Assembly (NCBI GenBank): GCA_036273715.1
Contig: DASUHB010000072.1
Coordinates: 124,001 to 188,000, forward strand
Source: Gemmatimonadaceae bacterium
GTDB lineage: Bacteria > Gemmatimonadota > Gemmatimonadetes > Gemmatimonadales > Gemmatimonadaceae
Length of the DNA stretch: 64,000 bases
Direction: 5' to 3'
A model generated the notes under the pieces. The model ran no database searches. It saw only the letters and a program-made list of their open reading frames with translations, and was not told the DNA's origin. The position numbers were made by a program, and so were the translations under genes. Positions within the stretch are counted from its first letter, which is position 1, and the number at the start of each line of letters is the position of its first letter. Positions 9,277 through 39,310 of the stretch are shown piece after piece.

Positions 9277-9875
9277 GTCTGAAGGCGGGAGAAGTAAGAG
9301 AGCGCGGGCGGGTCCTCGGGGATCCGTCCGCGTTGTCATCTGTGCGCCTGGTCAGTCGCGAGCGCAATTGCGGCACGGGAAGCGAGCGCGGCCTGCTTGA
9401 CACGCTCTCCGGTGGTCTTCAGTTTCTTGCTCCGCCGAGGGACGGCTGATCGCGTTGTGGGAGAGAACCAGGAGTGAGGGGTTGCCGATTGCTCAGGCGC
9501 TGTGCAGGATATGTCGGATGGGTGTTCGGATGGGTGTAATGATTTGATTTGTCACACCACCGACACGAGGGACGCATCGGCGGGCAGCACCCGTGAGCCC
9601 GCCGGCATGACAGAGTGAGCGCGCGAGCACTGCGCGCGGCGTGACGAAATAGATCGCACAAGTTCGAGCGAAGACCGTTTTCAACTCACGTAGTGGTACG
9701 CGTCAGTGTGAGGTGCGATGGTCTGCAGCGAGAGAAGTCCTCCTCGATGTGGCACGCTGTTCCGCTGTTGCCCCAGCGGAACTAGCCCCAGTGCGGCCCC
9801 AACCGCGAGGCCTGGCGGCACAGCGTGCGGATGCGCGGTCATGCTCAATCCTCACTCTCCACAAGGGGCAGCATC
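9277..9875. other. Intergenic region upstream of xoxF
   Basis: About 600 bases with no convincing gene on either strand. A TTGACA hexamer sits at 9397-9402 but no good -10 follows at 17 bases. Short open frames (for example 9493-9684 minus) show no family features. The xoxF ribosome binding site AAGGGG lies about 8 bases before its ATG. The region is the natural place for metal- or alcohol-responsive control, but I cannot point to an operator. Confidence 0.4.
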
Positions 9876-11681
9876 ATGAATCGCTTTACCCGCTTCTCTT
9901 CTTGGGCGGTCCTCGCAGGCACGTTGGCCGTTGGCGCATCAGCCGCCAGCGCCCAGCAACAGCTGATCGAGGCCTCCAAGAATCCGGGCCAGTGGGTCAT
10001 GCCGGGGAGGACGTATGATCTGCAGCGGCATAGTCCGCTCAAGCAGATCACCACGGCGAACGTCAAAGACCTGCAGGTTGCCTGGACGTTCTCGACCGGC
10101 GTGCTTCGCGGGCACGAAGGTAATCCGTTAGTCATAGGCCATGTGATGTACGTGCACTCGGCGTTCCCGAACAAAGTGTTCGCGCTCGATCTTGCGAAGG
10201 CTGGCGCACCGCAGATCTGGCAGTTCACACCGGAACAGCCGGCCGACGTGATTCCGATCGCATGTTGCGACGTCGTGAATCGCGGTCTTGCGTACAGCCC
10301 GAAGTACGATCGCCTCTACATCGAATTGTTGTCCGGCGATCTGCTCGCGCTCGATGCGAAGACCGGCAAGCAGGTGTATCGGGTGAAGAGCGCGGACTAC
10401 AAGAAGGGCGAGACGATGACTAACGCGCCGCTCGTGGTCGGCGACGTCGTCGTGACGGGCATCTCGGGCGGCGAGTTCGGTGTTCGTGGTCGTGTGACCG
10501 CGTTCAGCGCGGTGGACGGCAAGGAGCTGTGGCGGGGCTACAGCACGGGCCCCGACAAGGACGTGCTGATCACGGCGAACACCCTCAAGTCGCCGTATCC
10601 GAGCGACCAGGGCACCGACCTTGGCGTGTCGACGTGGCAGGGCGATCAATGGGAGCGCGGTGGCGGTACGACGTGGGGTTGGTACTCGTACGATCCCGAT
10701 CTCAACCTGTTCTACTACGGCAGCGGAAATCCGGGCGTATGGAATCCGGATCAGCGTCCCGGCGACAACAAGTGGTCGATGTCGATTTGGGCGCGCAATC
10801 CGCAGACGGGTGAGGTGAAGTGGGTCTACCAGATGACGCCGCACGACGCGTGGGACTATGACGGCGTGAACGAGATGGTGCTGTTCGACAAGGACGGGAA
10901 GAAGCTGTTGGCGCACTTCGACCGCAACGGCTTCGGATACACGCTCGATCGCACCACCGGCAAAGTGCTCGTAGCGGAGCCTTACGGCCCGGTGAATTGG
11001 GCGACCAAGATCGACTTGACGACAGGTCGTCCCGTCGAGGATCCTGCAAAGCGCACGAACGCGAAGGGCAACACGCAGGGCATCTGCCCCGCCGCGATCG
11101 GGTTCAAGGATCAGCAGCCGTCGTCGTACGATCCTGAAACTGGTTTGTTCTTCGTGCCGACCAACAACATCTGCATGGACTACGAGGGCGTCGAGGTGAA
11201 GTACTCGGCCGGACAGCCGTACGTGGGAGCCATCGTGCGGATGTTCCCCGGTCCCGGCGGCAACCGTGGCGCCGTGATCGCGTGGGATCCGATGAAGGGC
11301 AAGATCGTGTGGAAGGACAAGGAGAATCTGGCGGCGTATGGTGGCACGATGAACACCGCCGGCGGCGTGGTCTTCTACGGCACGATGGAAGGCTGGCTCA
11401 AGGCGGTCGACGCCAAGACCGGCAAGCTGCTGTGGGAGTTCAAGACGCCTTCGGGAATCATCGGCAGCCCGATGACGTATGTCGGTCCTGATGGCAAGCA
11501 GTATGTGGCGGTGCTGTCGGGTATCGGCGGCTGGGCGGGCATCGGCGTGGCCGCGGGCATCGGCGCAGAGGATCCGACGGCTGGTCTCGGAGCACTCGGC
11601 GCATTTGGCGATGCCGGACACTATTCGAACCAGGGTGGTGTATTGACGGTGTTCGCACTGCCTGGCGCCGCAAAGCCGTAA
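9876..11681 (+). CDS. xoxF: XoxF-type lanthanide-dependent methanol dehydrogenase
   Basis: A 601-residue periplasmic quinoprotein oxidising methanol to formaldehyde (possibly to formate). Signal peptide residues 1-27 (ASAASAQ). PQQ site: vicinal disulfide C130-C131, E200 in GGEFGVRG, N285 in GSGNPG, catalytic D327, and D329 in WDYDG, the Asp that marks XoxF against calcium MxaF (WDYAG). GGTTWGWYSYDP and RPGDNKWSMSIWAR are typical XoxF stretches. No mxaI-like small subunit is nearby. xoxJ and a cytochrome c follow. The gene has no copy of the GTTAGGC motif, unlike most neighbours. Confidence 0.96.
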   Translation: MNRFTRFSSWAVLAGTLAVGASAASAQQQLIEASKNPGQWVMPGRTYDLQRHSPLKQITTANVKDLQVAWTFSTGVLRGHEGNPLVIGHVMYVHSAFPNKVFALDLAKAGAPQIWQFTPEQPADVIPIACCDVVNRGLAYSPKYDRLYIELLSGDLLALDAKTGKQVYRVKSADYKKGETMTNAPLVVGDVVVTGISGGEFGVRGRVTAFSAVDGKELWRGYSTGPDKDVLITANTLKSPYPSDQGTDLGVSTWQGDQWERGGGTTWGWYSYDPDLNLFYYGSGNPGVWNPDQRPGDNKWSMSIWARNPQTGEVKWVYQMTPHDAWDYDGVNEMVLFDKDGKKLLAHFDRNGFGYTLDRTTGKVLVAEPYGPVNWATKIDLTTGRPVEDPAKRTNAKGNTQGICPAAIGFKDQQPSSYDPETGLFFVPTNNICMDYEGVEVKYSAGQPYVGAIVRMFPGPGGNRGAVIAWDPMKGKIVWKDKENLAAYGGTMNTAGGVVFYGTMEGWLKAVDAKTGKLLWEFKTPSGIIGSPMTYVGPDGKQYVAVLSGIGGWAGIGVAAGIGAEDPTAGLGALGAFGDAGHYSNQGGVLTVFALPGAAKP

Positions 11682-11708
11682 GCGAACGAGACGTGCAGGA
11701 AGTGATCG

Positions 11709-11746
11709 AACCCGGTGTCGGAGCGATCGTGCTCCGGCACCGGGTT
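11709..11746 (+). terminator. Strong hairpin between xoxF and xoxJ
   Basis: Sixteen-base stem 11709-11724/11731-11746 with a 6-base loop (GATCGT) and a single G-U wobble. It lies 28 bases after the xoxF stop and 45 before the xoxJ ATG. No T run follows, so it is more likely a partial terminator or a 3' RNA-stabilising element that lets xoxF be made in excess over xoxJ and the cytochrome. Confidence 0.6.
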
Positions 11747-11791
11747 GATCGCGTTAGGCAGTGGCAGTCACTCTTTCGAAAGAAGGACACC

Positions 11792-12685
11792 ATGCAGTAC
11801 TTGCATCGCAGCTGGGTTCGTGGCGCCGCTGTCGCGCTGATCGGCATTCTGGCCGGCGCCGGGTCGAGCGCGCGGGCGCAGGGGGAGAAGGTCAAGCCCC
11901 AGGGGGCGGAGCCGCCGAGCGATTTTCCGATCACGCAGGCGTGGAAGGATTTCAAGATGCTGCGCGTGTGCGGCGATCCGGAGAACATGCCCTTCTCGGA
12001 CCGGCAGCAACAGGGTTTCGAAAACAAGATCGCCGATGTCCTCGCCAGTGCGTTAGGCGACTCGGTGGTGTACACCTGGTGGCCGCATCGGCGCGGGTTC
12101 GTGCGCAACACGCTGAGCGCATCGGAGTGCGACGTGGTGATGGGCGTCCCGGCCGGATACGACCCGGTGCTGACCACGAGTCCGTACTACCGGTCGACGT
12201 ACTACATCGTGACGCGCGCCGATCGCCATTTGAACATCCGGTCGCTGGACGATCCGCGGCTCAAGTCGTTGAAAGTCGGCGTCGGTCTGATCGGCGACGA
12301 CTACACGAACACGCCGCCGGCGCAGGCGTTGGGCACTCATGGCGTGACGCAGAACGTGCGCGGATTCAGTCTGTTTTACGATGAAGACACCCATCCGCAG
12401 GACATCGTGAACGCGGTGGCGAATGGGACGATCGACGTGGCGCTGGTGTGGGGGCCGGTGGCTGGGTATTTCGCCAATGCGTCATCGGTGCCGCTGAGCC
12501 TGGCCGCGCTCCCGGACTCCGACAGCGCGAGCGGTGTGCGGTTTGCGTACGACGTTGCGATCGGGGTCCGTCACTCGGATCGCGAATTCAAGGCAACGCT
12601 CGACTCGTTGCTAACGGAGAAGCGGGATACGATTCAAGGGATCCTGCGGGCCTATCACGTGCCGACGCTGGAGCTCAAGCCCTGA
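11792..12685 (+). CDS. xoxJ: XoxJ-like periplasmic binding protein of quinoprotein clusters
   Basis: A 297-residue protein with a signal peptide (to about residue 30, ARAQ) and a type 2 periplasmic solute-binding fold: LRVCGDPENMPFSD at the mature N terminus, then KVGVGLIGDDYTN and FAYDVAIGVRH. The family accompanies xoxF/mxaF and is thought to help activate or assemble the dehydrogenase, not to serve an ABC transporter; none is encoded here. RBS AAGGA. Same operon as xoxF, downstream of the hairpin. Confidence 0.9.
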   Translation: MQYLHRSWVRGAAVALIGILAGAGSSARAQGEKVKPQGAEPPSDFPITQAWKDFKMLRVCGDPENMPFSDRQQQGFENKIADVLASALGDSVVYTWWPHRRGFVRNTLSASECDVVMGVPAGYDPVLTTSPYYRSTYYIVTRADRHLNIRSLDDPRLKSLKVGVGLIGDDYTNTPPAQALGTHGVTQNVRGFSLFYDEDTHPQDIVNAVANGTIDVALVWGPVAGYFANASSVPLSLAALPDSDSASGVRFAYDVAIGVRHSDREFKATLDSLLTEKRDTIQGILRAYHVPTLELKP

Positions 12686-21952: not shown

Positions 21953-22804
21953 CTACATCACGGCGCCGCCGCCGATCAAGAGCGTCTGGCCCGTCAAATA
22001 CGCGCTGTCGGGCGAGGCGAGAAACACGGCAGCGCGCGCGACGTCGGCCGGCGTGCCCCAGCGCGCGAGCGGAATCGTCCGCGCGATCTTGCGTCGCCTA
22101 ACGGCGTCGAGCCCGCCGCCGAACTCCGTGTCGATCCATCCCGGAGCGAGGACGTTGACCCGGATGTGCGGCGCCACCGTGCGGGCGAGCGACTTGCTGA
22201 ATGCCATCACGCCGCCTTTGACCGCCGAGAACATCTCCGGATTGCGTCCCGACATGCCGGTGAGGACGTGGTCCCAGCTCATGTTCAGAATAACGCCGCC
22301 GGACGATTGTTCGCGCATCACCCGCGTGGCTTCCCAGGACGCGAGGATGGTGCCCCGAAGGTCGACTGACAGAAGCAGGTCGAGCTTCTTCGCGTCGGGA
22401 AGATTGGCGGTGCGACCGGTAAGGATGTCGGCGCCGGCGTTGTTGACCCACACGTCGAGGCGGCCGAGGGCCCGCTGCGCGTCCGCGGCCAGATCGGTAA
22501 TCGACGCGGCGTCGGCCAGGTCGAGCTTGAACACATGCGCCTGACGTCCCAGGCGCCCGATTTCGGCCGCCGTGGATCTGGCTTCGCGTTCTTCGCTGCG
22601 ATAGGTGATCGCGACATCTGCACCGGCCTGGGCGACGGCAAGCGCGATGGCGCGGCCGATCCCTGTCGAGGCGCCGGTCACGACCACGCTGGTACCTGCC
22701 AGCGCCTGGCCGGCGCTGCCGGATCGCGTGGCGCCAGCGTGTCGATCGGTCAACCGGTTGCCTCCGTACCGCGGGTTCCGTAGAGTAGCCGGGAGCGCAA
22801 ACAT
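21953..22804 (-). CDS. Short-chain dehydrogenase/reductase with altered active site
   Basis: A 283-residue SDR: TGASTGIG (43-50) for NAD(P) binding and NNAG (121-124) are intact. The catalytic YxxxK reads F192-SAV-K196, so Tyr is Phe, and the usual Ser position aligns with W177 (NMSW). A 35-residue extension precedes the fold. Placed between PCD and mfnB, it may be a pterin or furan reductase using another acid, or a binding protein. No dmrA-type dihydromethanopterin reductase is visible in the window, so a substitute role is conceivable but unproven. Confidence 0.8.
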   Translation of the reverse strand: MFALPATLRNPRYGGNRLTDRHAGATRSGSAGQALAGTSVVVTGASTGIGRAIALAVAQAGADVAITYRSEEREARSTAAEIGRLGRQAHVFKLDLADAASITDLAADAQRALGRLDVWVNNAGADILTGRTANLPDAKKLDLLLSVDLRGTILASWEATRVMREQSSGGVILNMSWDHVLTGMSGRNPEMFSAVKGGVMAFSKSLARTVAPHIRVNVLAPGWIDTEFGGGLDAVRRRKIARTIPLARWGTPADVARAAVFLASPDSAYLTGQTLLIGGGAVM

Positions 22805-22862
22805 GACCGGCGCGGCGACGCGTCACAAGGGGACTCGAGGGCGAGGGCAAGGGAGAACATCG

Positions 22863-23678
22863 ATGCGGCTTCTCATCAGTGTGTCGAGCGGGGCCGAGGC
22901 GGAGGCGGCGCTCGAGGGCGGGGCGGACATCATCGACGCGAAGGATCCTGCCGCGGGTCCGCTCGGCGCCGTGAGTGGGCGCGCATTGGGCGAAATCGTG
23001 AGGGCCGTGGATGGCCGGCTGCCAGTGAGCGCGGCGCTTGGCGACGCGAGCGACGAGGTGGCGGTCGCGTTGGCCGCACGACGGGTGGCCACTCACCGCC
23101 TGGCGTACTTGAAGATCGGCTTTGCGGGTATTTCAGATCAGGAGCGGGTGGAGTCGCTGGTCGCGGCTGCAGTGCATGGCGCGTGTTTGGTCAGCGCGAG
23201 CATCGGGGTCATTGCGGTGGGATACGCGGACTATTTGCATCCGGATGTTGCTAGTCTGTCGCCATGGTGGCTCGTTGAAGCTGCAGAACGTGCCGGCGCG
23301 TTAGGCGTTCTCCTCGACACCGCCGTGAAGCATACGGACCGCGCGGCTCGCGGGGTGTTCGGAGCGATGTCGGAGACGCAACTGGCGGCATGGGTGCGCC
23401 ACGCTCACGGTGCCGAGTTGACGGTGGCAGTGGCAGGTGGTCTCGCCGGGTCGCAGCTCTCGGAATTGCGCGCCCTCGGCGTGGATGTCGCGGGCGTCCG
23501 CGGCGCTGCGTGCGAGGATGGCGACCGGCTTGGACGGGTGTCACGCGCTCGAGTCGCCGCGCTGGCCCGGTGCGCCGGCCGGCGGAGCTGGGCGCAGGGG
23601 CCGGCGCCGGCTTCGCGACTGCGGCGCGGCGGCGAGGAGCGGCTCGAGCCGTCTACGTCGCCCGCAGCGCTTCAGTGA
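22863..23678 (+). CDS. mfnB: (5-formylfuran-3-yl)methyl phosphate synthase
   Basis: A 271-residue TIM-barrel (DUF556) enzyme making the furan of methanofuran from two glyceraldehyde 3-phosphates. Conserved: ADIIDAKDPAAGPLGA near residues 23-38, YLKIGF, SASIGV and DTAVKHTD with the late catalytic Lys. The final ~35 residues after VAALARC are an extra tail. Plus strand, opposite to its pathway neighbours; its 3' end overlaps the convergent mfnE by 26 bases. ATG 22863 follows a GGGAGAA stretch. Confidence 0.9.
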   Translation: MRLLISVSSGAEAEAALEGGADIIDAKDPAAGPLGAVSGRALGEIVRAVDGRLPVSAALGDASDEVAVALAARRVATHRLAYLKIGFAGISDQERVESLVAAAVHGACLVSASIGVIAVGYADYLHPDVASLSPWWLVEAAERAGALGVLLDTAVKHTDRAARGVFGAMSETQLAAWVRHAHGAELTVAVAGGLAGSQLSELRALGVDVAGVRGAACEDGDRLGRVSRARVAALARCAGRRSWAQGPAPASRLRRGGEERLEPSTSPAALQ

Positions 23679-24219
23679 GTCCGGCGGCATCGGCGATGAC
23701 GACTTCCAATCCGTTAGGCAGGGCCCGCTCGAAGTAGGCATCGACGAGCGCGGACTGCTCGTCGACCACCGGTTTGACGAGCACGAGGCGCCGTGCGCCT
23801 AACTCGCCCGCGACCCACGCGGCGATCGAGTCGCTCGTGACGTCCCAGCTGTGCGGCAGCGGATCGCGGGCGCGCAGCCAGCGGTAGGGCGCGAGCACTG
23901 GGAGCCGGCCATGCACGAGCGCGCCGGTGATTTCGGCCGGGTGTTCGACGAGCCGGGCGCGCGTCGTGCGCGAGGCGATGAGCAAGGCATGCTGGTCCAT
24001 GGCGAGGACCGCCATCCAGTGGGAGGCATCGGCGCCGATGCGCAGCTTCGTGTCGACGTTCCGGACGACATCGGCGAATGGTCCGCCGCCTGGGACGACG
24101 GCCAAACCGTCGGCGTGGGCGATGGCGCTCTCGAGCGCGCGCACGACTGCATCGAGTGGTCCTGGCGTCGCGAGCAGGGCACCGCCCACCTTTACGACGG
24201 TATCCACTCGCGAGGTCAT
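23653..24219 (-). CDS. mfnE: Amino acid kinase family protein, MfnE-like
   Basis: A 188-residue amino acid kinase-fold protein: VVKVGGALL at the N terminus, VVPGGGPFADVV nucleotide/phosphate loop, and DVTSDSIAAWVAGELGA in the middle. In methanofuran synthesis MfnE phosphorylates 5-(aminomethyl)-3-furanmethanol phosphate to the diphosphate. The start MTSRVD overlaps the mfnF stop as ATGA, so the longer open frame upstream is discounted. Role follows from the mfnF/mfnB neighbours. Confidence 0.85.
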   Translation of the reverse strand: MTSRVDTVVKVGGALLATPGPLDAVVRALESAIAHADGLAVVPGGGPFADVVRNVDTKLRIGADASHWMAVLAMDQHALLIASRTTRARLVEHPAEITGALVHGRLPVLAPYRWLRARDPLPHSWDVTSDSIAAWVAGELGARRLVLVKPVVDEQSALVDAYFERALPNGLEVVIADAAGLTEALRAT

Positions 24220-25238
24220 GCCTGGATGCGTGCGCGGAGGACGGCGACGGCGGCGGCGGGCGCCGCGCGCGAGGCGGCGCTGCCTAACGTTTCGGCGAGG
24301 CTCACGCAGGAGACCATGAGCCGTCGCGCCGCGCGCTCGGCGATGAAGGCGCCGAGTCCTGCGGCGACCACGGGAGCCTCCGGTGCGGTGTCCGCGCGGA
24401 CGCGCGCGAGCGCGGCCGACGTGCGCGCGATCTGGGCGTCGGCGACGTGAGCCGCAATGTGGTCGACGGCGCGATCGTCGAGGCTCTCGCGGTCGGCGCA
24501 CACGATGCGGGCGAGTCGTTCTCGCACGAACTCGCGCGCGACGGGCCGGCCGTCGGACGTGCCGGTATCGTAGTCGGCGGGCAGGAGGTCACCGTTCCAC
24601 ACATGCACATCGCCGGACAGGGCGAACGCTTCGGCAGACACGCCGGCCGCCGAGCCGCCGAGCGGCACTTCGTGGACGATGGCTTCAACGGGCGTCCGCA
24701 GGACGCCAAGATAGAGCAGCTCTCCGTTAGACAGGCGCTCGGCGTCGGTGCGGCCGGCCGCGACGACCGCGCCGGCGGCGATGGGAATGATGTCGGTGGT
24801 CGTGGACCCGATATCGACGAGCGTTGCGTCAGGCCACGTGAGCGCGATGACGGATGCCGTGGCGCGCCAGTTTGCGGCGGCGGCCCGAAGCGGGGTGTGG
24901 CGCGCTTCGTCCGGGCTCACAAAGCATCCGTCCACCGTGTAAACCGAGATTTCGTCGTTGCGGAACGCCGCGGAGAAGGCGTCGAGAACGAAGGTCACGC
25001 CCTCGCGCTTGGTGCGGAAGAGCTGCGAGAGCTCGGCCGTCATGGTGAGCGCGTGGGGGCAGCCGGGCGGCAGCGCCGCCGCGCGCGCCGCGGCGTGGAG
25101 CGCGTCGACGAGCTCCGCTGGTGTCCGTTGGATCTCGAACGGGCGCGTGCGCGCATGCACGACGCGTCCGTCCTCGACGACGGCGATTTTGAGGTTGACG
25201 CCGCCGATGTCCCACCCGGCCACGACCGTCGGCGTCAC
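24216..25238 (-). CDS. mfnF: MfnF-like methanofuran-precursor condensing enzyme
   Basis: A 340-residue actin/hydantoinase-like fold protein: GWDIGGVNLKIAVVE at the start, TMTAELSQLF, and a second phosphate loop LVDIGSTTTDIIPI. The family, long labelled H4MPT-linked C1 transfer pathway protein, joins the aminomethylfuran diphosphate to glutamyl-tyramine in methanofuran synthesis. GTG start; 23 bases separate it from the divergent HisA-like gene, a gap that contains a GTTAGGC copy. Confidence 0.88.
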   Translation of the reverse strand: MTPTVVAGWDIGGVNLKIAVVEDGRVVHARTRPFEIQRTPAELVDALHAAARAAALPPGCPHALTMTAELSQLFRTKREGVTFVLDAFSAAFRNDEISVYTVDGCFVSPDEARHTPLRAAAANWRATASVIALTWPDATLVDIGSTTTDIIPIAAGAVVAAGRTDAERLSNGELLYLGVLRTPVEAIVHEVPLGGSAAGVSAEAFALSGDVHVWNGDLLPADYDTGTSDGRPVAREFVRERLARIVCADRESLDDRAVDHIAAHVADAQIARTSAALARVRADTAPEAPVVAAGLGAFIAERAARRLMVSCVSLAETLGSAASRAAPAAAVAVLRARIQA

Positions 25239-25261: not shown

Positions 25262-26032
25262 ATGCAGCTGATTCCGGTGCTCGATCTGCAAGGCGGGCGC
25301 GCGGTGCACGCTCGGGGCGGCGACCGGTCGCGTTACGCGCCTCTCATCTCGCGCGCCGCGCCCGATGCGGCGCCCGGCGACGCCGTCGCGATCACGGCGG
25401 CTTTCGCCGCGTTGGGCGCGCGACGCATCTACGTCGCGGATCTGGATGCGATCGAAGGACGCGCGCCGCAGGAATCGCTGGTGCACGAGTGCGCACGCGC
25501 GGGCCTCGACCACGGCGGCGCGCAGATCTGGCTCGACGCCGGTATCGCGCGGAGTGCAGACGCGGCGCGCTGGGGATCGGTCCCGGGCGTGGAGCGGATC
25601 ATCGTGGGACTGGAGAGCATCGCGGGCATGGACGTCGTCGCCGATGTCGTGCGGTTGGTTCGACCACTGCGCGTCGCGTTCAGCCTGGATCTTCGGAATG
25701 GCGCGCCTCAGGCGCGGTCGACGACGCTGGCTCGCGAAGCGCCGCTCGCGCTGCAGCAGGCGGCGGTGCGTGCCGGAGTGAGCGCGGTGCTGCTGCTCGA
25801 TCTCGCCCGCGTGGGCAGCGGCGCCGGTGTCGACGAAGCGCTGGCGGGGCGCATGGTCGCGAGGGCTGGGCCCGCGGAGTTGATCGTGGGGGGCGGCGTT
25901 GGGGATCTCGACGCCGTGCGCCGACTGGCGGTGTTGGGCGTACACGGTGTCCTCATCGGAAGCGCGCTGCACGACGGCCGGATCGATCCGCGTTTGCTCG
26001 CCGCCTTCGCCGCGTCCCCGGCGCCGGCCTAA
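25262..26032 (+). CDS. HisA-like TIM-barrel protein of the C1 cluster
   Basis: A 256-residue (beta/alpha)8 barrel with HisA/HisF traits: IPVLDLQGGRAVHA at the N terminus, FSLDLRNG mid-chain with the second acidic residue, and phosphate loops GGGVGDLDAV and IGSAL. A HisA paralogue is a known companion of H4MPT genes in methylotrophs; its substrate is not established. No other his genes are near, so a histidine role is unlikely. The TAA stop is in the loop of the terminator hairpin. Confidence 0.82.
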   Translation: MQLIPVLDLQGGRAVHARGGDRSRYAPLISRAAPDAAPGDAVAITAAFAALGARRIYVADLDAIEGRAPQESLVHECARAGLDHGGAQIWLDAGIARSADAARWGSVPGVERIIVGLESIAGMDVVADVVRLVRPLRVAFSLDLRNGAPQARSTTLAREAPLALQQAAVRAGVSAVLLLDLARVGSGAGVDEALAGRMVARAGPAELIVGGGVGDLDAVRRLAVLGVHGVLIGSALHDGRIDPRLLAAFAASPAPA

Positions 26033-26043
26033 CGGGCCGGCGC
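26021..26043. terminator. Hairpin terminator spanning the HisA-like stop codon
   Basis: Perfect 8-base stem GCGCCGGC (26021-26028)/GCCGGCGC (26036-26043) with loop CTAACGG, which contains the TAA stop and part of a GCCTAAC copy. It lies between convergent genes and can serve both; no T run. Confidence 0.6.
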
Positions 26044-26057
26044 ACCGAGCGCTCGTG

Positions 26058-27245
26058 TCAGGGCGTGTGATCTGACCCCGTCGAGTCGGCCTTCGGCTGC
26101 GAGGGGCGGCCGGCCGGCATGTTGGGCATGTCGCTCATCGGCATGTCGCGCATCTTGGCGTCCCCCGACGCGCGCGCGTCATGTCCGGCGGCGCCTTTGT
26201 GTTGTTGCGATGCGGTTCCGGCCGGGTGCTCGTTCATGTCGGTCATGATCGGCAGCGTGGCGATATCGCGTTTCACCAGCGGGTCGTTGAGATCGAGCTT
26301 GGGCCAGGTTGCGCCATCGTCGGGGACGAAGGCCCCGTTGATGTGTCCCATGCCTCCGTCCTTGAACGTTTCGCTGGTCGGGTTGTCGTACTCGGCGACG
26401 ACCCGGTATGGATGGTGCGCCTTGAGGGCGAGCGCGTCGCTGTTGAAGCCGAAGATGAAGCGGCCGACGCCCTGCACGTGGCCGTCGTGGTCGCGGCGCG
26501 CCTTGAGGCGGGCGAGCACCTTTCCGTTAGTCGCGTCCTGGAGCTCGAGGGTGCTGCCGTAGTCGTGCAGATGTCCGCCGATGCCGACGAGCTTTCCGCC
26601 GATCGGGAGCTCGAATTCATAGCTGTGGGTCGATTTTCCCGGTGGCACATCGAATGTGGTAACGCCGCCGATGTGGTTATTCACATCGACGTAGAACGGC
26701 ATCACGGACAGCACGTCGTGTCCCGCGGCCGGCGTGTAGAGCAGCGTGACCTCGAGGTAGGCCGCATCGATGTCCTTGCCGGTTTCGTTGTGGAACATGG
26801 CGTACATACCGAGCTTTTCGCCTAACCGCATCGGGACGCCCATGGAGGCGGGGAGCTCGACGGGGTCGGTTTCGGCGCCCCAGCCGAAGAGGCGCTCGAC
26901 GGCCGGGTAGACCAGCTGGCGGCGGTCGAAGTTGACGCCGATGAGATGGTGCAGGATCTCTCGGGGCAGCGCCTTACCGGCGGCATCGCGCATCCGGACG
27001 CTGAAGCCGCGCAGGTATCCATCGACGGGCCAGGTGAACGGCATCACATCGTTCGGCGTCATGTTCGACATGTCCATCTGCGCATTCATCGCCGGCAGAC
27101 GGAACGGTCCCGCGGTGACGATGATACGGGAGTGCGCCGAGTCGACGCGGACTTCGATCTTGGGCGGCGTGACCGGAAGCACGGCCGCGGGATGCGGGGC
27201 CGGGCCGGCGAGCAGCGTCGTGACAGCAAGCAGTAAAGTCACCAT
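26058..27245 (-). CDS. Secreted copper type II monooxygenase-like protein
   Basis: A 395-residue exported protein (signal to about residue 20). It shows the copper-ligand pattern of peptidylglycine alpha-hydroxylating monooxygenase: H99-H100 (EILHHLIGVNF), H152 (AMFHNETG), H225-x-H227 (GGHLHDYGS) and M299 (GGMGH), with spacings of 52, 73 and 72 against 64, 70 and 70 in the mammalian enzyme. The C-terminal 70 residues are Met/His/Asp-rich (MRDMPMSDMPNMP) and may bind copper. Substrate unknown. It is in line with the C1 cofactor operon, 35 bases after the PTPS gene. Confidence 0.6.
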   Translation of the reverse strand: MVTLLLAVTTLLAGPAPHPAAVLPVTPPKIEVRVDSAHSRIIVTAGPFRLPAMNAQMDMSNMTPNDVMPFTWPVDGYLRGFSVRMRDAAGKALPREILHHLIGVNFDRRQLVYPAVERLFGWGAETDPVELPASMGVPMRLGEKLGMYAMFHNETGKDIDAAYLEVTLLYTPAAGHDVLSVMPFYVDVNNHIGGVTTFDVPPGKSTHSYEFELPIGGKLVGIGGHLHDYGSTLELQDATNGKVLARLKARRDHDGHVQGVGRFIFGFNSDALALKAHHPYRVVAEYDNPTSETFKDGGMGHINGAFVPDDGATWPKLDLNDPLVKRDIATLPIMTDMNEHPAGTASQQHKGAAGHDARASGDAKMRDMPMSDMPNMPAGRPSQPKADSTGSDHTP

Positions 27246-27280
27246 GATGTCTATCCTTGACCGTTAGGCATTGAGCAAGC

Positions 27281-27793
27281 TCAGCCGAGCGTTCCGCGAT
27301 ACGTGGCGGATTGGCCGAAACTTTCTTCCACTTCCATCTCGATGGCCGTGAGATGCGCCACGGTGCCTGCGCCTAACTCGGTAAGGAACCGGGTGGCCAG
27401 GTGGCGCGCGAGCATCTCGACGGTGGTATTCGGGATGGGCAGCAGCGCGCAGTCCCGCGCCGGGAACACGTAGCGCAGCGCGCCCTCGTAATCGACGGAC
27501 ACCGTTTGGTCCCTGGTGACGATGCCCAGCTTCGGGTTCTCGAGCGGCAGCAGCACTTTATGGTCGATCTCGTCGCAGAGTTGGCGCATGAGCCGTTTGA
27601 CCAACGAAAAATCGAGCACGTACCAACCGTCTTCATCGATCGCACCGTCGAGCGCCACGCCGACGCGATAATTGTGGCCGTGCAGCGACTCACAGCGGTG
27701 GCCGGCGAACGTGATGAAGTGCGCCGACGAGAAAACGGTGTAGTCCTTCTTGACCCGTATCCTAAACTCGCCGTGGGTTCGCATCTGTTCCAT
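27281..27793 (-). CDS. 6-pyruvoyltetrahydropterin synthase/QueD family, dual-motif type
   Basis: A 170-residue COG0720 protein. Zinc ligands: H25 in FSSAH and H38/H40 in LHGH. The active-site stretch C34-E35-S-L-H-G-H satisfies both the QueD/PTPS-I pattern CxxxHGH and the PTPS-III pattern ExxHGH. Enzymes with both are reported to make carboxytetrahydropterin for queuosine and 6-hydroxymethyldihydropterin, bypassing FolB. In this cluster the pterin product could feed H4MPT. Start MEQMRT is used; the inner ATG three codons on is possible. Confidence 0.85.
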   Translation of the reverse strand: MEQMRTHGEFRIRVKKDYTVFSSAHFITFAGHRCESLHGHNYRVGVALDGAIDEDGWYVLDFSLVKRLMRQLCDEIDHKVLLPLENPKLGIVTRDQTVSVDYEGALRYVFPARDCALLPIPNTTVEMLARHLATRFLTELGAGTVAHLTAIEMEVEESFGQSATYRGTLG

Positions 27794-27801
27794 CCGGAGC
27801 G

Positions 27802-28686
27802 CTAGCTCCAGCCTCCCTCGAGAAGAACGGCGAAAATTGCGGCGGCGGTAAGATCGGCGGTGGTCCCGGGGTTCCGGGAATTGGATGGGTCGCGGAGCGC
27901 GCGATCGAACGCAGCCGCCCGCAGGCGGCCGGCTGCGCTCCGCACGCCGCCGGCAGCGAGCACCGCGCGGCTGCGCCGAGAGATGGCAGCCGCTTCCGCG
28001 TTGCCCACCTTGCGAGCCACGTGCGTGTCGGGCGCCGCGGCCAGCAGCGTCAGGTAGGTCTCGACAATGGCGTCGTCCCATGAAAGTCCATCGCCTCGCG
28101 CGCGTCGCAACGTGGGCGCGCCCAACTCGAACGTGACGGCAAAGTCCGTGGCGTACTCGCGCGCGATACCGTCGTGATCCGCGGCGAGCACCATGACGGC
28201 GCGCAGGCCGCGGGTTGGCGCAGCCGCGACATCCTGCGACGTCGCGCGGCCGAGTCCCCCGGGATGCGCGAGGCGAATGGCGGCATACACATGGGCCGCA
28301 TCGCGCACCGTGGTTCGCCGCAACACGCGCGCCACGCGGCCGCGCAGCGTCCCGCCGCGCGGATCGAGAGCGGCCCGCGCAAGCGGCGCGAGCAGCAGGA
28401 TGATACCGAGATTCGTATTGGCGCGCGTCCAACCCGCGGTCGCGAGGCAGGCTCCGTAGATGGTGGCACCGAGCGTGCGGCGTCGCGCGAGCAGGAACGC
28501 AGGCCCAATCGCGGCGGCGCTGGCGAGGAAGTGCTCGTAGCGCGTGTCGTGAAAATGCGTGCGGGCGGGTGGCGCAACGTTACCGGGTTTTTGTGCGCTG
28601 GCCTCGAGCAAGCACGCCAGTTGGGCAGCGCTCGCGACATCTGCGGCCGTGGCTGGTCGTACGGGCGTGCGACGGTTTGGCGTCAG
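27802..28686 (-). CDS. CitG-like (triphosphoribosyl-dephospho-CoA synthase) family protein
   Basis: About 294 residues of a CitG/MdcB-like helical fold: LEASAQKPGNV near the start, TRANTNLGIILLLAPLA, and SRNPGTTADLTAAAIF at the end. CitG-like genes accompany H4MPT clusters; their reaction there is unknown. No ATG or GTG occurs near the expected N terminus. A CTG at 28686 overlaps the preceding stop as CTGA, copying the ATGA overlaps of its neighbours, and is taken as start with low certainty. Nine bases separate it from the PTPS gene. Confidence 0.75.
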   Translation of the reverse strand: MTPNRRTPVRPATAADVASAAQLACLLEASAQKPGNVAPPARTHFHDTRYEHFLASAAAIGPAFLLARRRTLGATIYGACLATAGWTRANTNLGIILLLAPLARAALDPRGGTLRGRVARVLRRTTVRDAAHVYAAIRLAHPGGLGRATSQDVAAAPTRGLRAVMVLAADHDGIAREYATDFAVTFELGAPTLRRARGDGLSWDDAIVETYLTLLAAAPDTHVARKVGNAEAAAISRRSRAVLAAGGVRSAAGRLRAAAFDRALRDPSNSRNPGTTADLTAAAIFAVLLEGGWS

Positions 28687-29941: not shown

Positions 29942-30898
29942 TCACTGCATCAGCGATGTGCGCAGCACTTCGGGATCCAGCTTGCCGCCGTGGAACGTGC
30001 GTCCGGAGGTGTCGCTGGTGAGCCAGACTTCGCCCGGGCTGAAGAGCATTTTATCGATCTTGTAGAAATCGCCACCGTAGCGCTTGAAGATGTCATAGAA
30101 CGGTGTGCCGTAGTCGTGCGATGCGGAGGCGGGGAGTCGGCTGGCGAGCTGCGAGAGCTCATCGTCGTCGGCGCGAACGGTGAAGTGCGCCTGTCCGCCG
30201 TAGAGCACGCAGTCGTTGGTGCGGCCGATGGCGTGCAGGTCGTCGTGCGCCACGGGCGGGAGCGGGGCGACGCCGATCCCGCTGACCACGCGCCGGACGT
30301 CGAAGCCTAACGACTCCATCTTGTGGAGCGCCGTCTCGAGGATGCGGGCCACGACCTGCACGCCGCCGGCGAGCGACGCCGTCGGCGCGATGGCGATCGT
30401 GACCTGGCGCGGATCGAGTTTGGCGCGCGAGGCGATGTAATGGGCAACTTCGTCGGTGGGCGGCGTTCGTCCCTCGAGGACGAGCACGCCGCGCGTGGCC
30501 TGCTCGGCGTAGCCCAACCTGGTGAAGAGCTCGGTCTCGACGCGGGCATGCGCGCGCAGCGGGCCGGATGCCATCGCGAAATACTTGCCGACCTGGATCG
30601 ACCAGCCGGCGTACTGCGATGCCATGCAGGCGAGCGCGGGATGATCGGTCCACAGGCGGACACCGGGGTACGAGTCGCTGCCAATTCGTAACCAAGTGAG
30701 ACTAATGTCGGCCAATCCACTCGTGCAGAGCTGCGCGAGCGCGATGCCGGCGCCGAGACCGCCGGCGGCTTCGATGCCCGCATCCAGCAGGCGCGTGCCC
30801 GACGGCAGCAGGCTGCTCGCGACGCGGAGTTGGCTCGCGCGCGCGACCATGTCGTCCGCCAGCTCCCAGGCGCGCTCGTTCAAGTGGAGGGCGCTCAC
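29942..30898 (-). CDS. mch: Methenyl-H4MPT cyclohydrolase
   Basis: A 318-residue cytoplasmic enzyme interconverting 5,10-methenyl-H4MPT and 5-formyl-H4MPT. Family stretches: LNERAWELADDMVARA, LLDAGIEAAGGLGAGI, ASGPLRAHARVE, ALHKMESLGFD and NDCVLYGGQAHFTV; length is as expected (about 315-330). Start overlaps the fhcC stop as ATGA. It links MtdB to the formyltransferase. Confidence 0.95.
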   Translation of the reverse strand: MSALHLNERAWELADDMVARASQLRVASSLLPSGTRLLDAGIEAAGGLGAGIALAQLCTSGLADISLTWLRIGSDSYPGVRLWTDHPALACMASQYAGWSIQVGKYFAMASGPLRAHARVETELFTRLGYAEQATRGVLVLEGRTPPTDEVAHYIASRAKLDPRQVTIAIAPTASLAGGVQVVARILETALHKMESLGFDVRRVVSGIGVAPLPPVAHDDLHAIGRTNDCVLYGGQAHFTVRADDDELSQLASRLPASASHDYGTPFYDIFKRYGGDFYKIDKMLFSPGEVWLTSDTSGRTFHGGKLDPEVLRTSLMQ

Positions 30899-31716
30899 CG
30901 GCCGGCCCGCGTGAGAATTTCGCCGCGTCCCGTCTCGGACATGTCGCCGCTGTAACGCAAAAAGGCGGCGCCGCGGGCGTCATCGCCGAGCGAGAGATCG
31001 CGGCGGGAGCGCAGATGCACGAGGGTGACGGCGATGTGCGGCGGCACGTACGTACAATCGTAGAGGTAGGTGGGCGGGACGTCGACGCCGCCGAAGACGA
31101 CGATGCTGCCGCGTTTGTTGAACCGGCCGGGATCGTGCCCTGCACTGCCGAAGACGATCACGTTGCCGGCGATCATGCCCACGCCGGCGCGCGGACCGGC
31201 GTTGCCGGCGACGACCACGGTGCCGCGCCGCATGGACGCGCCGATTTCAGCGCCGGCGTTGCCGCGCACGATGATCTCGCCGCCGGACATGCCGCGCGCC
31301 GCGGCCAGGCGGCCCGCGCCTAACCGATCGCCGGCATTGCCGGCGACGTCGAGCAGGCCGCCGGACATCTCGAGGCCCGCGCCGTAGCCGGCATCGCCGC
31401 CGACGCGCAGCGTGCCGCCGGACATGCGGGTGCCCACATAGCGCCCCACGGCGCCGTCCACGTGCAGGTCGCCGGTCGACATGCCGGCGCCGATGGCGTC
31501 GACGAGCGCCAGGTCGCCGGCGAGGCGCACGGTGCTCGACCGGCCGCCGCGCACCTGGAACACGTCGCCTAACGGAACGACGCATGCGCCATCCCACAGC
31601 GGCAGCCGCGCGATGCCGGCCTCGTCGAGGGCCGCGAACGCATCGGGCAGGATGGACTCCGCCTCGAGGCGGCGCCCGATCGCGCCGCGCAGCGTGAGCG
31701 TGACGGCGTCGCTCAT
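30895..31716 (-). CDS. fhcC: Formyltransferase/hydrolase complex subunit C
   Basis: A 273-residue protein homologous to formylmethanofuran dehydrogenase subunit C (FwdC). The repeated G-x-x-G-x-x-M-x-x-G-x-L/I units (AGMSTGDLHVDGAVG, TRMSGGTLRVGGDAG and following) form the right-handed beta helix shared with the glutamate synthase C-terminal domain. It is structural in FhcABCD, which moves formyl from H4MPT to MFR and releases formate. ATGA overlaps both neighbours. Confidence 0.94.
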   Translation of the reverse strand: MSDAVTLTLRGAIGRRLEAESILPDAFAALDEAGIARLPLWDGACVVPLGDVFQVRGGRSSTVRLAGDLALVDAIGAGMSTGDLHVDGAVGRYVGTRMSGGTLRVGGDAGYGAGLEMSGGLLDVAGNAGDRLGAGRLAAARGMSGGEIIVRGNAGAEIGASMRRGTVVVAGNAGPRAGVGMIAGNVIVFGSAGHDPGRFNKRGSIVVFGGVDVPPTYLYDCTYVPPHIAVTLVHLRSRRDLSLGDDARGAAFLRYSGDMSETGRGEILTRAGR

Positions 31717-32627
31717 GCCGCGGCGCCCGCGCCCATGATCTCGCGGAGATAAAAGTGGTGTGGTCCGAGCTTGCCGCCGTAATTGCCGGCGGAGATGCTG
31801 TGGATGCCGCTGCGGCAGGCGGCGTCGATCCCCGCGCGCATGGCGGCCGCGATCGAGGGCGCGTCCAGGCCGTCGAGCACGATCTCGAGCGCGGCGTTGA
31901 CTCCGTTAGGCAACGACGATGGCGACCGCGAGCGAATGGTGGGCGAGAACGCGTCGTTGGTCGTCGCGATCATCGACGGATAGCGTTTGCTGCCCACCTT
32001 GCTGCCGCTGCGCACGATGCCGCCGGGAAACGGAAGCGCCACCCCCGGCGTTCCGCGCATGGCCTCGACTGCGGCCTCGGCTGCGTCGAGGGCAGCCGCA
32101 TCGCTCTCGGCGAGGATGAGAAAGTTGCCGCCGCCGACACCCTTGATCCGTCCGAACGTCTCCTGCACCAGGAACTCGCCTTCCATCACCGGGATGCGCC
32201 AGTAGCGTTGGCCCCCGATCACCTTGCTGGATTGAAATCCGTCGCCGAACACGCGCAGGGATCGTCCGATCGGCATCCGGTCGGTCGCATCGAGGAGGCC
32301 GTCGAAGCACGCGGTGGTGACGCACGTGAGCACCGTCTGCCCGATGCGCTCGATCATGCGCTTGACGAGACTGTCCGAATCCATCGTGAAGAGCAGCACG
32401 CTGACGCCGGGACGACCATCGGGCGTCTCGGACGGCGAGAGCTCCCGTTCGATGCCTGCTTCGACCTTGCAGGCGATGACGGACGTCGCGAAGCCCGTCA
32501 TCTCGCGTGCGGCTTCGGTCGCCCAACGCCGATCGCGCGCGGTGATGATGACCCGCGCCGCGCGCATGCCGAACGCTTCGGCGAACGTGTTTTCGATGGC
32601 CACACCGCGAATGTTCACGTTAGGCAC
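31713..32627 (-). CDS. fhcD: Formylmethanofuran:H4MPT formyltransferase, Fhc subunit D
   Basis: A 304-residue Ftr homologue. Seen: NTFAEAFGMRAARVIITA at the N terminus, GFQSSKVIGGQRYWRIPVMEG, GRIKGVGGGNFLI and KYPSM-like KRYPSMIATTND. It transfers formyl between formyl-H4MPT and MFR. The GTG start overlaps fhcA by eight bases (GTGCCTAA), and the GCCTAAC motif there is both the fhcA stop and fhcD codons for Pro-Asn. It retains the expected length of the family. Confidence 0.95.
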   Translation of the reverse strand: MPNVNIRGVAIENTFAEAFGMRAARVIITARDRRWATEAAREMTGFATSVIACKVEAGIERELSPSETPDGRPGVSVLLFTMDSDSLVKRMIERIGQTVLTCVTTACFDGLLDATDRMPIGRSLRVFGDGFQSSKVIGGQRYWRIPVMEGEFLVQETFGRIKGVGGGNFLILAESDAAALDAAEAAVEAMRGTPGVALPFPGGIVRSGSKVGSKRYPSMIATTNDAFSPTIRSRSPSSLPNGVNAALEIVLDGLDAPSIAAAMRAGIDAACRSGIHSISAGNYGGKLGPHHFYLREIMGAGAAA

Positions 32628-34269
32628 CCGCGCCGACGGGAACCGGCGCGTCGCGCGGCGGCGCGACCGGATAGTTGGCGAGCGCGATCGTCGCGTAGCG
32701 CTCGAACCACGCCGAGAGGTCGCGCATCACCGCGTCGTCGTACGGCGGCCGCACGTACAGACGACGGGACGGCGGCGCCCGGCGCAGCTGCCCTTCCTCG
32801 ACGACGAGCTCGCCCGCCTTGATGACGTATCGGGGCGTCGAGAACATCGCGGCGATGTTCGCGTCGCGCGCGTAAATCGTGATGTCGGCGTCCGCGCCCG
32901 CGCCCAGATGTCCCTTGTTCGCCAGGCCTAGCTGCCGCGCCGGACCGGCGCGCGTGATGATCGCGATCTCCCGCAGGGTGTACTCGCGCGCGAGCCCGTC
33001 GGCGAGCGCGCTCCCGGCGAGCAGCTTCTGATTCACGGCCTTGAGCCGGTCGTCCCGATAGGCGCGATCCATCAGCAGCCGAATCAATTCGGGGTAGCTC
33101 GTGAACGCGCCGCCGTTGGGATGGTCGGTGGACAGCACGACCCGCCACGGATCCTCGGAGAGCAGGAACAGCTCGAGACCGACGACCCACTGCAGCGCGG
33201 CGACGGCTGCGGCGTCCCGGTACTCGTACGGCACAATGCCGCATCCGGTCTCGAGTTCGACGTCCACGTTGACCCACCGCCGTCCGCTGCTCGCGTGCAG
33301 CAAATACTCCACGGCGCCATCGGCAGTGACCGTCGTCGCGTGTCCGAGCATCACCTGCCCAACGTCGATCGAGACCTCGTCGTGCGCATTGATGTAGGCA
33401 ATGAGCTGCTTGGCACCGGACGCCCACGGCTTGCCGTTTCCTCCGGCATACGCATGGAACTGGGCGTGCGCGAAGTGCGCCCGGCGCCCGGACAGCGCCC
33501 GCATGCTGTCGAGGGTCGTGGAGACGTTGCCAGGGAGACCGAGGTTGTTGCAGTGGATGTGCACGGGGTGCGGAAGCGCCAGCGTCGCGGCGGCGTCCGC
33601 CAGCGTCTCCATGATCGCGCGTGGCGTGGCGCCCGGGACACCGCTCGTGTCATCGATGCTTTTCACCGTGCGGATGTTGCGCTTCCAGAGCTCGACCCCG
33701 CCCGGATTCACGATCTTGATCGCATAGGCGCCGGTCGCGCCTAACAGCCAGGCGGTATAATCGCGGGCGCGGTCGCGTTCACCGGCGGCCACCTGCTGGA
33801 GCAGATAGGCATCGTTGCCCATGAGGGCGAAGAAGCCGGCGTCGATGATGGGCGTATCGTCGAGCTGCGCGTGCGTGTCGCGCGCGCTCACGGGCGCCAC
33901 CGCGGCGTCGAACACCGTGGTGTAGCCGAGCCCCGCGTAGCGGTAGCCGGTGGTGAACGTGCTCGGCACGGTGCCGCCGGTGCCGGAGCGCGGCACGGCA
34001 TCGCGGAGCGCGGGCGCGGCTGTCGGATCGGCCGTGCGCTCGTCGGACAGGATGCGACGGGCGTGATTGACGCTCGAGCCGGCGATGTGCGCGTGGATGT
34101 CGATGCCGCCGGGCATCACGACCATTCCGTGCGCGTCGAGGCGCGGCGCGTCGGTCGGGAGTGCGTCAACGATGCGGCCATCCAGCACGCAGACGTCGCG
34201 TACGTCTCCATCAACGCCGTTTGCGGGATCGTAGACGGCGCCGCCGGTGATGCGCAGGCGGTCGCTCAC
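32620..34269 (-). CDS. fhcA: Formyltransferase/hydrolase complex subunit A
   Basis: A 549-residue amidohydrolase-fold subunit homologous to FwdA/FmdA. The metal site begins with GGIDIHAHIAG near residue 50-60 and later His residues include HIHCNNLG and HFAHAQFHAY. In bacterial Fhc this subunit hydrolyses formyl-MFR to formate and MFR. The GTG start at 34269 overlaps the fhcB stop (GTGA), which decides it over the much longer open frame upstream. Confidence 0.95.
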   Translation of the reverse strand: MSDRLRITGGAVYDPANGVDGDVRDVCVLDGRIVDALPTDAPRLDAHGMVVMPGGIDIHAHIAGSSVNHARRILSDERTADPTAAPALRDAVPRSGTGGTVPSTFTTGYRYAGLGYTTVFDAAVAPVSARDTHAQLDDTPIIDAGFFALMGNDAYLLQQVAAGERDRARDYTAWLLGATGAYAIKIVNPGGVELWKRNIRTVKSIDDTSGVPGATPRAIMETLADAAATLALPHPVHIHCNNLGLPGNVSTTLDSMRALSGRRAHFAHAQFHAYAGGNGKPWASGAKQLIAYINAHDEVSIDVGQVMLGHATTVTADGAVEYLLHASSGRRWVNVDVELETGCGIVPYEYRDAAAVAALQWVVGLELFLLSEDPWRVVLSTDHPNGGAFTSYPELIRLLMDRAYRDDRLKAVNQKLLAGSALADGLAREYTLREIAIITRAGPARQLGLANKGHLGAGADADITIYARDANIAAMFSTPRYVIKAGELVVEEGQLRRAPPSRRLYVRPPYDDAVMRDLSAWFERYATIALANYPVAPPRDAPVPVGAGA

Positions 34270-37814: not shown

Positions 37815-38684
37815 TTAGGCCTGGAGGCCCGCGGCGAGCTCGGCGATGGTCTCGGCGTCGAGGACGGTGTCGTTCTGCTCGAACAGGCGCGCGATGCAGG
37901 CCTTGTGCACTTTCATCTTGAAGCCGCCCACGCCGATGGCGCCGAAGGCCGTCACGCCGCCGCGGTCCTTGCCGTCGTCGTTCACTTCGATGCCCTCGAT
38001 TCCTAACGGCGGCACGGCGTTGAGGTCGCACGCCACCGTCAGGCCCCGGTGCGCGGACCACGCATCGCGCGGCACGAGCAGCACGCCCGCCGGTCCCGTG
38101 TTGAGGAGAATCTCCGGCTTGACGGCATCGAGGACGCGAGCGGCTTCGGACGCGTCGTGCATGCAGACCATCGCGACCGTGCCGCCGAACCGGGACGCGA
38201 TGCCCGAGCGCGCTTTTTCGCCCTCCTCTTCGCGCCGCGATGTGATCGTGACTAACGCACCGGCCTTGGCGAGCAGTCCCGCCGCGCGCGCGCCCACGGG
38301 ACCCGTGCCGGCGGTGACCAGCACTTTCTTTCCGCGCACGTCGCGCGCCGCGCGCGTGATCTTGATGACGGCGGCAACCGCAGTCGTGTTGGAGCCGTTC
38401 GAGTCGAGCATCATCGACACCTTGAACGGTCCGAAGAGCGATTTCTGCGCGGCGGCGAGCAAGGCTTCGCCGGCGGACATGTCGCTGCCGCCGATGAACA
38501 CGGCGGTGTTGTGCAGATCCTTGGGGCCGCGGGTGAAGATGCACCCGTGAATGAGATCTCGAACATCGGCCGCCGCCACGCCGCCGCGCTGCATCACCGC
38601 ATCCGCGCCCGCGTCGTAGGCGACAACTTCGTCGAACGCGCTGGGCAGCTGATTCGAATCGATCTGAAGCAGAAGTTTTTTCAT
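37815..38684 (-). CDS. mtdB: NAD(P)-dependent methylene-H4MPT dehydrogenase
   Basis: A 289-residue enzyme oxidising methylene-H4MPT to methenyl-H4MPT. The Rossmann loop is KKVLVTAGTGPVGARAAG; MLDSNGSNTTAVAAV and LNTGPAGVLL are typical of MtdA/MtdB. The Fae and Mch neighbours favour MtdB (H4MPT) over MtdA (H4F). Start MKKLLLQ is used; MGARMKK 12 bases upstream is possible. Its TAA stop is inside a motif copy (37814-37820). Confidence 0.93.
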   Translation of the reverse strand: MKKLLLQIDSNQLPSAFDEVVAYDAGADAVMQRGGVAAADVRDLIHGCIFTRGPKDLHNTAVFIGGSDMSAGEALLAAAQKSLFGPFKVSMMLDSNGSNTTAVAAVIKITRAARDVRGKKVLVTAGTGPVGARAAGLLAKAGALVTITSRREEEGEKARSGIASRFGGTVAMVCMHDASEAARVLDAVKPEILLNTGPAGVLLVPRDAWSAHRGLTVACDLNAVPPLGIEGIEVNDDGKDRGGVTAFGAIGVGGFKMKVHKACIARLFEQNDTVLDAETIAELAAGLQA

Positions 38685-38702
38685 GCGGGCACCCATCGAT
38701 GA

Positions 38703-38730
38703 ACACGGGGCGCCGCTGAGCGCCCCGTGT
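38703..38730 (-). terminator. Perfect hairpin between fae and mtdB
   Basis: Eleven-base perfect stem 38703-38713/38720-38730 with loop CGCTGA, 68 bases after the fae stop and just upstream of the mtdB start. No T run follows, so partial termination or 3' protection of the abundant fae transcript is more likely than full termination. Confidence 0.6.
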
Positions 38731-38797
38731 GTCGTGTTCGTACCAGCTCGCGAGGACCGCGTGCGCAGCGATGCGCGCGCGCGGCCCAGGCCTGCAA

Positions 38798-39310
38798 TTA
38801 GCCTTCCGCGCCGCTGGCGAAGGGGTGACGGGCCGTCTTCTCGCCGGCGATCACGTCGTCGATCCGCGGCTGTCCTTTGAGCGCGCGCTCGAGCGCCTGC
38901 TTGGTCGCCCGGTAGTTGAAGTCGAAGATTTTCTTGTCGTCCTTCGCGTCCCAGTGGATGAACACGCCCACGAGGATGCAATAGTCATCGACCTTGTCGC
39001 GCGGAATGACACCTGACGATACGGAGTCGACCACGGCGCGGGCCACAGCGGCTTGCGCGGGTCCGAACATCTGCACCGCCTGCTTCGCGCCCTTGATCGT
39101 GACCTTGTTGAACAGGATGGTGTCGGGCTTGGCCGCGAGATTCGGCGTGACGACGGCGAGCAGGCTCGTGAACCCGTCCTTGTTGTTCGACAGCGCGTTG
39201 ACAAACGCCTGCCCCGCATGTCCCGACTTGGAGCCGATGATGAGATCGATGTGCGCCACCTCGTTCCCGTCGCCGATCAGGGATTCACCGATATAGAATT
39301 CCGCTGCCAT
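38798..39310 (-). CDS. fae: Formaldehyde-activating enzyme
   Basis: A 170-residue enzyme, the typical length, condensing formaldehyde with H4MPT to methylene-H4MPT. Near the start, [21 protein letters not shown] carries His20, equivalent to the catalytic His of Methylorubrum Fae. ATG 39310 is chosen because GGAGG lies eight bases upstream; the GTG at 39319 would overlap that site. First gene of the long minus-strand run. It contains no GTTAGGC copy, in line with a highly expressed gene avoiding rare codons. Confidence 0.96.

Follow-up and report, generated by a model that had tools for sequence, protein, structure and literature searches.

We found that the gene at 26058-27245 on the minus strand of the window, the stretch of 64,000 nucleotides analysed here, encodes a protein predicted to adopt the fold of peptidylglycine monooxygenase (PHM), and that its homologues form a bacterial family whose role is probably that of a copper oxidase or monooxygenase, as deduced from fold and ligand residues. 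PHM and dopamine beta-hydroxylase (DBH) are dicopper enzymes with two separated sites and a mechanism that is under debate. A natural experiment on the purpose of the CuH site is offered by a large bacterial family with a predicted PHM fold in which five of the copper ligands are kept and loss of the sixth is tolerated. About one third of the sampled Gemmatimonadota genomes have the gene, to which the assignment would also give a name and a chemistry open to testing.

The encoded protein and its predicted fold

The open reading frame at 26058-27245 (minus strand) has an ATG start and encodes 395 amino acids, none of them cysteine. It is a real gene, with the codon composition of one (GC3 of 0.85 against GC2 of 0.44) and with purifying selection against four orthologues, for which dN of 0.018-0.14 and dS of 0.12-1.02 give a dN/dS of about 0.08-0.15. 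A hydrophobic segment resembling an export signal occupies residues ~1-27 (27165..27245, minus strand); it is also present in relatives and is unstructured in the model, which agrees with the original prediction of an exported protein. The predicted Met/His-rich tail was likewise recovered as a disordered C-terminal segment (residues 334-395; 26061..26246, minus strand; pLDDT below 50), and similar tails recur throughout the family. Additionally, a Met/His-rich loop lies between the first strands (residues 53-68; 27042..27089, minus strand), with M57 present in 28 of 30 homologues and M53 in 24 of 30. The recurrence of such segments in the family sequences suggests copper acquisition. They occur at either end of family members, at the N-terminus in L101 and at the C-termini in L039 and L074.

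Sequence searches against Pfam and NCBIfam assigned the window protein to no family, and neither phmmer nor profile searches returned a significant relative in the PDB. The Cu2_monooxygenase families PF01082 and PF03712 gave no match to it up to an E-value of 10, nor to any of 77 members up to an E-value of 1; PF03712 also had no match in the protein's own genome, an uninformative result, as the control genomes gave no match either. Upon aligning the family profile with a single PHM by hhalign, the HxH motif fell in the correct register with a weak score (E = 0.05), which we did not use as proof of a relationship to PHM. SURNod19 (PF07712) was rejected as the true family, its matches being sub-threshold only (E of about 0.2) and confined to two members in the set of 30 and two in the set of 77; across 151 genomes of the order it had no member, and here too the controls gave no match. 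We found no literature on bacterial PHM-like proteins in Gemmatimonadota or Acidobacteria among open-access papers. Apparently, this is an undescribed PHM-fold family outside the coverage of Pfam and NCBIfam.

The fold assignment comes from predicted structures, the gene being annotated from its reading frame, its AlphaFold2 model and the Foldseek matches of that model to PHM. The model, built from an alignment of 30 homologues, contains two beta domains at high confidence, with 292 of the 395 residues at a pLDDT of 70 or above. Against the PDB, its top 29 Foldseek matches were all PHM (E-values of 6.7e-10 to 7.5e-8), whereas the best non-PHM match was a phage capsid jelly roll (E = 9.3e-6). 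A second model, of the relative L074, which has Glu instead of H152 (pLDDT 92), returned PHM or DBH as its first 22 PDB matches (best E = 7.8e-12), and a viral structure library, a background rich in jelly rolls, yielded generic jelly rolls only, with a best E-value of 8e-6. The TM-scores to PHM are moderate (0.36-0.58), partly because the domain hinge differs. For the window model the highest were obtained with the citrate-bound mutants 5WJA_D (0.47/0.58) and 6ALA (0.45/0.57), against 0.36-0.44 (query-normalised) for the remaining PHM entries, and for the L074 model with 6ALA_A (0.55/0.57, against 0.44-0.51 for the others); this best fit of both models to citrate-bound CuH mutants is suggestive only, predicted hinge angles being unreliable. 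A predicted fold lacking two jelly-roll domains would have spoken against the original prediction of a PHM-like protein. The window model contains two beta domains and both models match PHM or DBH first, so the prediction withstood this comparison, and we assign the window protein, as modelled, the two-jelly-roll PHM fold.

Copper ligands and their conservation

The six ligands expected for the two copper sites (HH, H, HxH and M) occur in the PHM order, as originally predicted, with spacings of 52/73/72 in the window protein, near the 64/70/70 of rat PHM, whose ligand residues (HH107-108, H172, H242/H244 and M314) were checked on PDB chains. The predicted CuH ligands are HH99-100 (26946..26951; PHM H107-H108) and H152 (26790..26792; PHM H172), and the predicted CuM ligands are H225-L-H227 (26565..26573; PHM H242/H244, aligned by hhalign with the weak score given above), which is followed by an invariant D228, and M299 (26349..26351; PHM M314), all on the minus strand.

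Within the set of 30 homologues, HH, HxH and M are each present in 30 of 30 and H152 in 20 of 30. We observed the same in a larger and more divergent set of about 78 homologues from Gemmatimonadota and Acidobacteria, with identities to the window protein down to about 30-35%, in which HH (78/78), HxHD (78/78) and M (77/77) do not vary in any sequence that includes the region. At the position of H152, 39 of about 79 homologues have His, among them all island-linked orthologues; the others have Ala, Glu, Tyr, Asn, Ser, Gln or Asp, and a tree computed with this column left out shows at least nine changes. Furthermore, E125, D187 and N288 are nearly invariant across homologues. The expectation that all six ligands would be conserved was therefore borne out in the close orthologues and the island-linked clade, which keep the complete set, but not for the third CuH ligand in half of the family. 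Given this conservation, the two predicted beta domains and the first rank of PHM in Foldseek, the ligand pattern is not due to chance.

In rat PHM carrying H172A, the CuH copper is absent, CuM is unchanged and no peptide is bound (PMC6123673). Since half of the family is without the third CuH ligand, the canonical dicopper mechanism cannot be family-wide; judged by their residues, the window protein and its clade are compatible with it. A further difference concerns R240, N316 and Y318 of PHM, which we take to bind the peptide carboxylate. By ligand spacing, the window protein has G223, H301 and N303 at these positions, and as the equivalents are absent, peptidylglycine is an unlikely substrate.

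Family distribution and position in the C1 island

The window holds an H4MPT/methanofuran island with fae, mtdB, mch, ftr, FhcA-like and FhcC-like genes, together with RimK-like, CitG-like, PTPS, pabAB-like and pterin genes. On the minus strand we located fae, for the formaldehyde-activating enzyme (38819..39292; PF08714, E = 7e-69; genome position G000:C72:162819-163292), an ORF with the mtdB domain whose true start lies inside it (37815..38981; PF09176, E = 4e-31), the formyltransferase gene ftr/fhcD (31713..32627; PF01913/PF02741) and mch, for methenyl-H4MPT cyclohydrolase (29942..30898; PF02289, E = 8e-118). A putative fhcB at 34266-35519 was assigned by position only. The window also encodes a PQQ-dependent methanol/ethanol-type dehydrogenase (9825..11681, plus strand; TIGR03075, 701 bits against a cut-off of 480), a second one at 5283-7076 (493 bits, same model and cut-off) and a MoxJ-like quinoprotein-associated binding protein (11693..12685, plus strand; TIGR03871, 300 bits against a cut-off of 212). 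A DUF1464 gene (36714-37790; PF07318, E = 3e-87) lies between mtdB and the fhc genes, and most of the H4MPT islands examined have it there too. The ORFs 22605-23678 and 23653-24501 match MfnB, the (5-formylfuran-3-yl)methyl phosphate synthase, and an MfnE-like kinase below the NCBIfam cut-offs; we assign both to methanofuran synthesis in the island.

The minus-strand run ends with the PHM-like gene, which lies 35 bp downstream of an ORF with a PTPS (6-pyruvoyltetrahydropterin synthase) domain (27281..28432, minus strand; PF01242, E = 1.4e-20; true start inside the ORF), and is convergent with a HisA-like gene (25262..26032, plus strand; PF00977, E = 7e-31). The claimed location within a C1 gene island thus holds, at the operon-like end of the H4MPT run, and nine other MAGs with the closest orthologues have the gene in the same place after PTPS. 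Ten genomes keep this linkage, with identities as low as about 54-58%, and the PTPS-linked orthologues fall on one side of a branch, a single origin with modest support (SH-aLRT 76). We find the gene island-linked in one Gemmatimonadaceae clade only, and on the stretch read it is absent from 18 H4MPT islands of other genera of the same phylum; presence in islands across lineages, as for an H4MPT pathway component, was therefore not observed. In 11 other islands with both ends seen, the PTPS-HisA junction measures 23-123 bp and contains no gene. Two genomes of genus g8 have a junction of 4-5 kb, which holds a SoxYZ-like carrier and a quinoprotein-relay-type metallohydrolase. This variable slot spans 25262-27281 in the window, 2240-7665 in L111 and 317-6959 in L112. 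A SoxYZ-like carrier match (TIGR04557, below cut-off) lies elsewhere in the genome of the window, at G000:C34:65032-65683.

When the family was examined across Gemmatimonadota, homologues were present in 125 of 395 genomes, and they also occur in Acidobacteria. The family is found in 37 of 41 MCH-bearing genomes versus 88 of 354 others (Fisher test, p = 1.6e-16, a figure inflated by relatedness), and by genus in 13 of 16 with MCH versus 45 of 122 others (p = 0.001, to which shared descent contributes). Most homologues are not linked to an H4MPT island, their neighbours being unrelated and lineage-specific. As to a conserved partner gene for these non-island homologues, the candidates were rejected, the neighbours varying among NlpC/P60, GroES, HAD hydrolase, lipoyl synthase-like, Fpg-like and amidohydrolase genes. 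In two loci, two PHM-like genes are adjacent or close (L043, ~177-2600; L060, 4319-7000), which suggests duplication.

The original prediction that the enzyme feeds formaldehyde to the H4MPT pathway is not supported by these distributions: beyond the 18 islands without the gene, 88 of the 125 family-bearing genomes have no MCH, other homologues lie in unrelated neighbourhoods, and the island already has Fae, the PQQ methanol-type dehydrogenases and the MoxJ-like gene. A new input to methylotrophy is accordingly unproven, and the C1 link of the gene, derived from its C1 neighbours in one lineage, is weak. If this clade-specific linkage is functional, a copper enzyme would be added to methylotrophy.

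Function, alternatives and known systems

On balance, we lean towards the window protein being an exported PHM-fold copper protein that would serve as an O2-dependent oxidase or monooxygenase of a small non-peptide substrate. Copper would most likely be bound by HxH...M in a CuM-like site and by HH together with H152 in a CuH-like site, the Met/His-rich segments would collect it, and the oxidation would take place in the cell envelope. In the one Gemmatimonadaceae clade, the gene would have reached the end of the H4MPT/C1 run a single time and then stayed, and this single placement and retention make it possible that the protein assists methanol/formaldehyde oxidation in the periplasm there.

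The main functional rival is storage, sensing or chaperoning, with the PHM fold kept for binding copper and the Met/His segments delivering it to another envelope enzyme. We regard it as rather unlikely, although the recurring Met/His-rich loop and tails fit it, most homologues have no adjacent conserved redox partner or substrate gene, and the third CuH ligand has been lost at least nine times, a loss that in rat PHM abolishes CuH occupancy (PMC6123673). Invariable retention of HH and HxHD...M, with E125, D187 and N288 nearly always kept, exceeds the needs of a simple delivery protein. PHM-type copper sites are, to our knowledge, otherwise known from monooxygenases, which also argues against such a role. 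A different arrangement of the metal, a merged single copper site or a closely coupled pair formed at a closed domain interface by HH and HxH (with M) from opposite domains, is an unlikely alternative. It would explain why HH and HxHD...M are fixed and the residue at the H172 position is free to change (H, E, A, Y, N, S, Q, D), and it draws on the top TM-scores of both models falling on citrate-bound CuH mutants (5WJA_D and 6ALA for the window, the closed 6ALA for L074). In H108A-PHM with citrate, the protein closes by about 18 degrees and a single copper is bound via H107, H242 and H244 (PMC6123673). Such a site, if it exists, would represent copper chemistry new to the PHM fold, in this case recruited to a C1 island.

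Two further readings concern the neighbourhood. There is a real, if less than even, chance that the PHM-like gene is a passenger in a PTPS-HisA slot that takes unrelated genes, so that its C1 neighbours would be uninformative on function; this bears on linkage and not on chemistry, and is compatible with the other readings. The empty junctions of the 11 islands and the other genes found there in g8 favour it, but the genes in g8 look like quinoprotein-associated ones, which may mean that the slot is not filled at random, and the PHM-like gene stayed in it over deep divergence in one clade. Periplasmic oxidation of an N- or O-methyl compound by a PHM-like monooxygenase, with the formaldehyde passing to the H4MPT pathway, is possible in one clade and on the whole improbable. 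The same-strand position 35 bp after PTPS in ten genomes, the six ligands kept in that clade and the co-occurrence of MCH with the family, inflated by relatedness, would be expected under it, but 18 islands of other genera are without the gene, most homologues are in genomes without MCH, the window's methanol-type PQQ dehydrogenases already supply formaldehyde, and in the neighbourhood we identified neither a transporter for methylated substrates nor an amine gene.

Returning to the favoured oxidase or monooxygenase, we compared the gene and its protein with known systems. H4MPT islands with xoxF have already been described in soil Gemmatimonadetes, and in the passages of that source considered here (PMC5103831) they are of the same type, with H4MPT synthesis, Fae, MtdB, MCH, Fhc and PQQ methanol dehydrogenase, and with a PHM-like gene unmentioned. 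The copper-regulated plant family SURNod19 gives the sub-threshold match reported above, a relationship that is not established; plant Nod19 is a target of the copper-responsive miR398 (PMC3882225). DBH (4ZEL) is matched by the L074 model (E = 7e-8) and has the same copper core, whereas the window protein has neither a DOMON domain nor a sequence match to it. PHM (1PHM, 1OPM, 6ALA) shares the two jelly-roll domains, the ligand order HH/H/HxH/M and secretion, but is only about 10% identical and contains disulfides, whereas the window protein has no cysteine and carries a Met/His-rich tail, and its family has a variable third CuH ligand and an invariant Asp after HxH. Among the features of copper type II monooxygenases (PHM/DBH), the window protein has the predicted PHM fold and the putative CuM ligands HxH...M. 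For the CuH set HH...H the picture is divided, with all three His in the window protein and its clade and the third missing from about half of the family.
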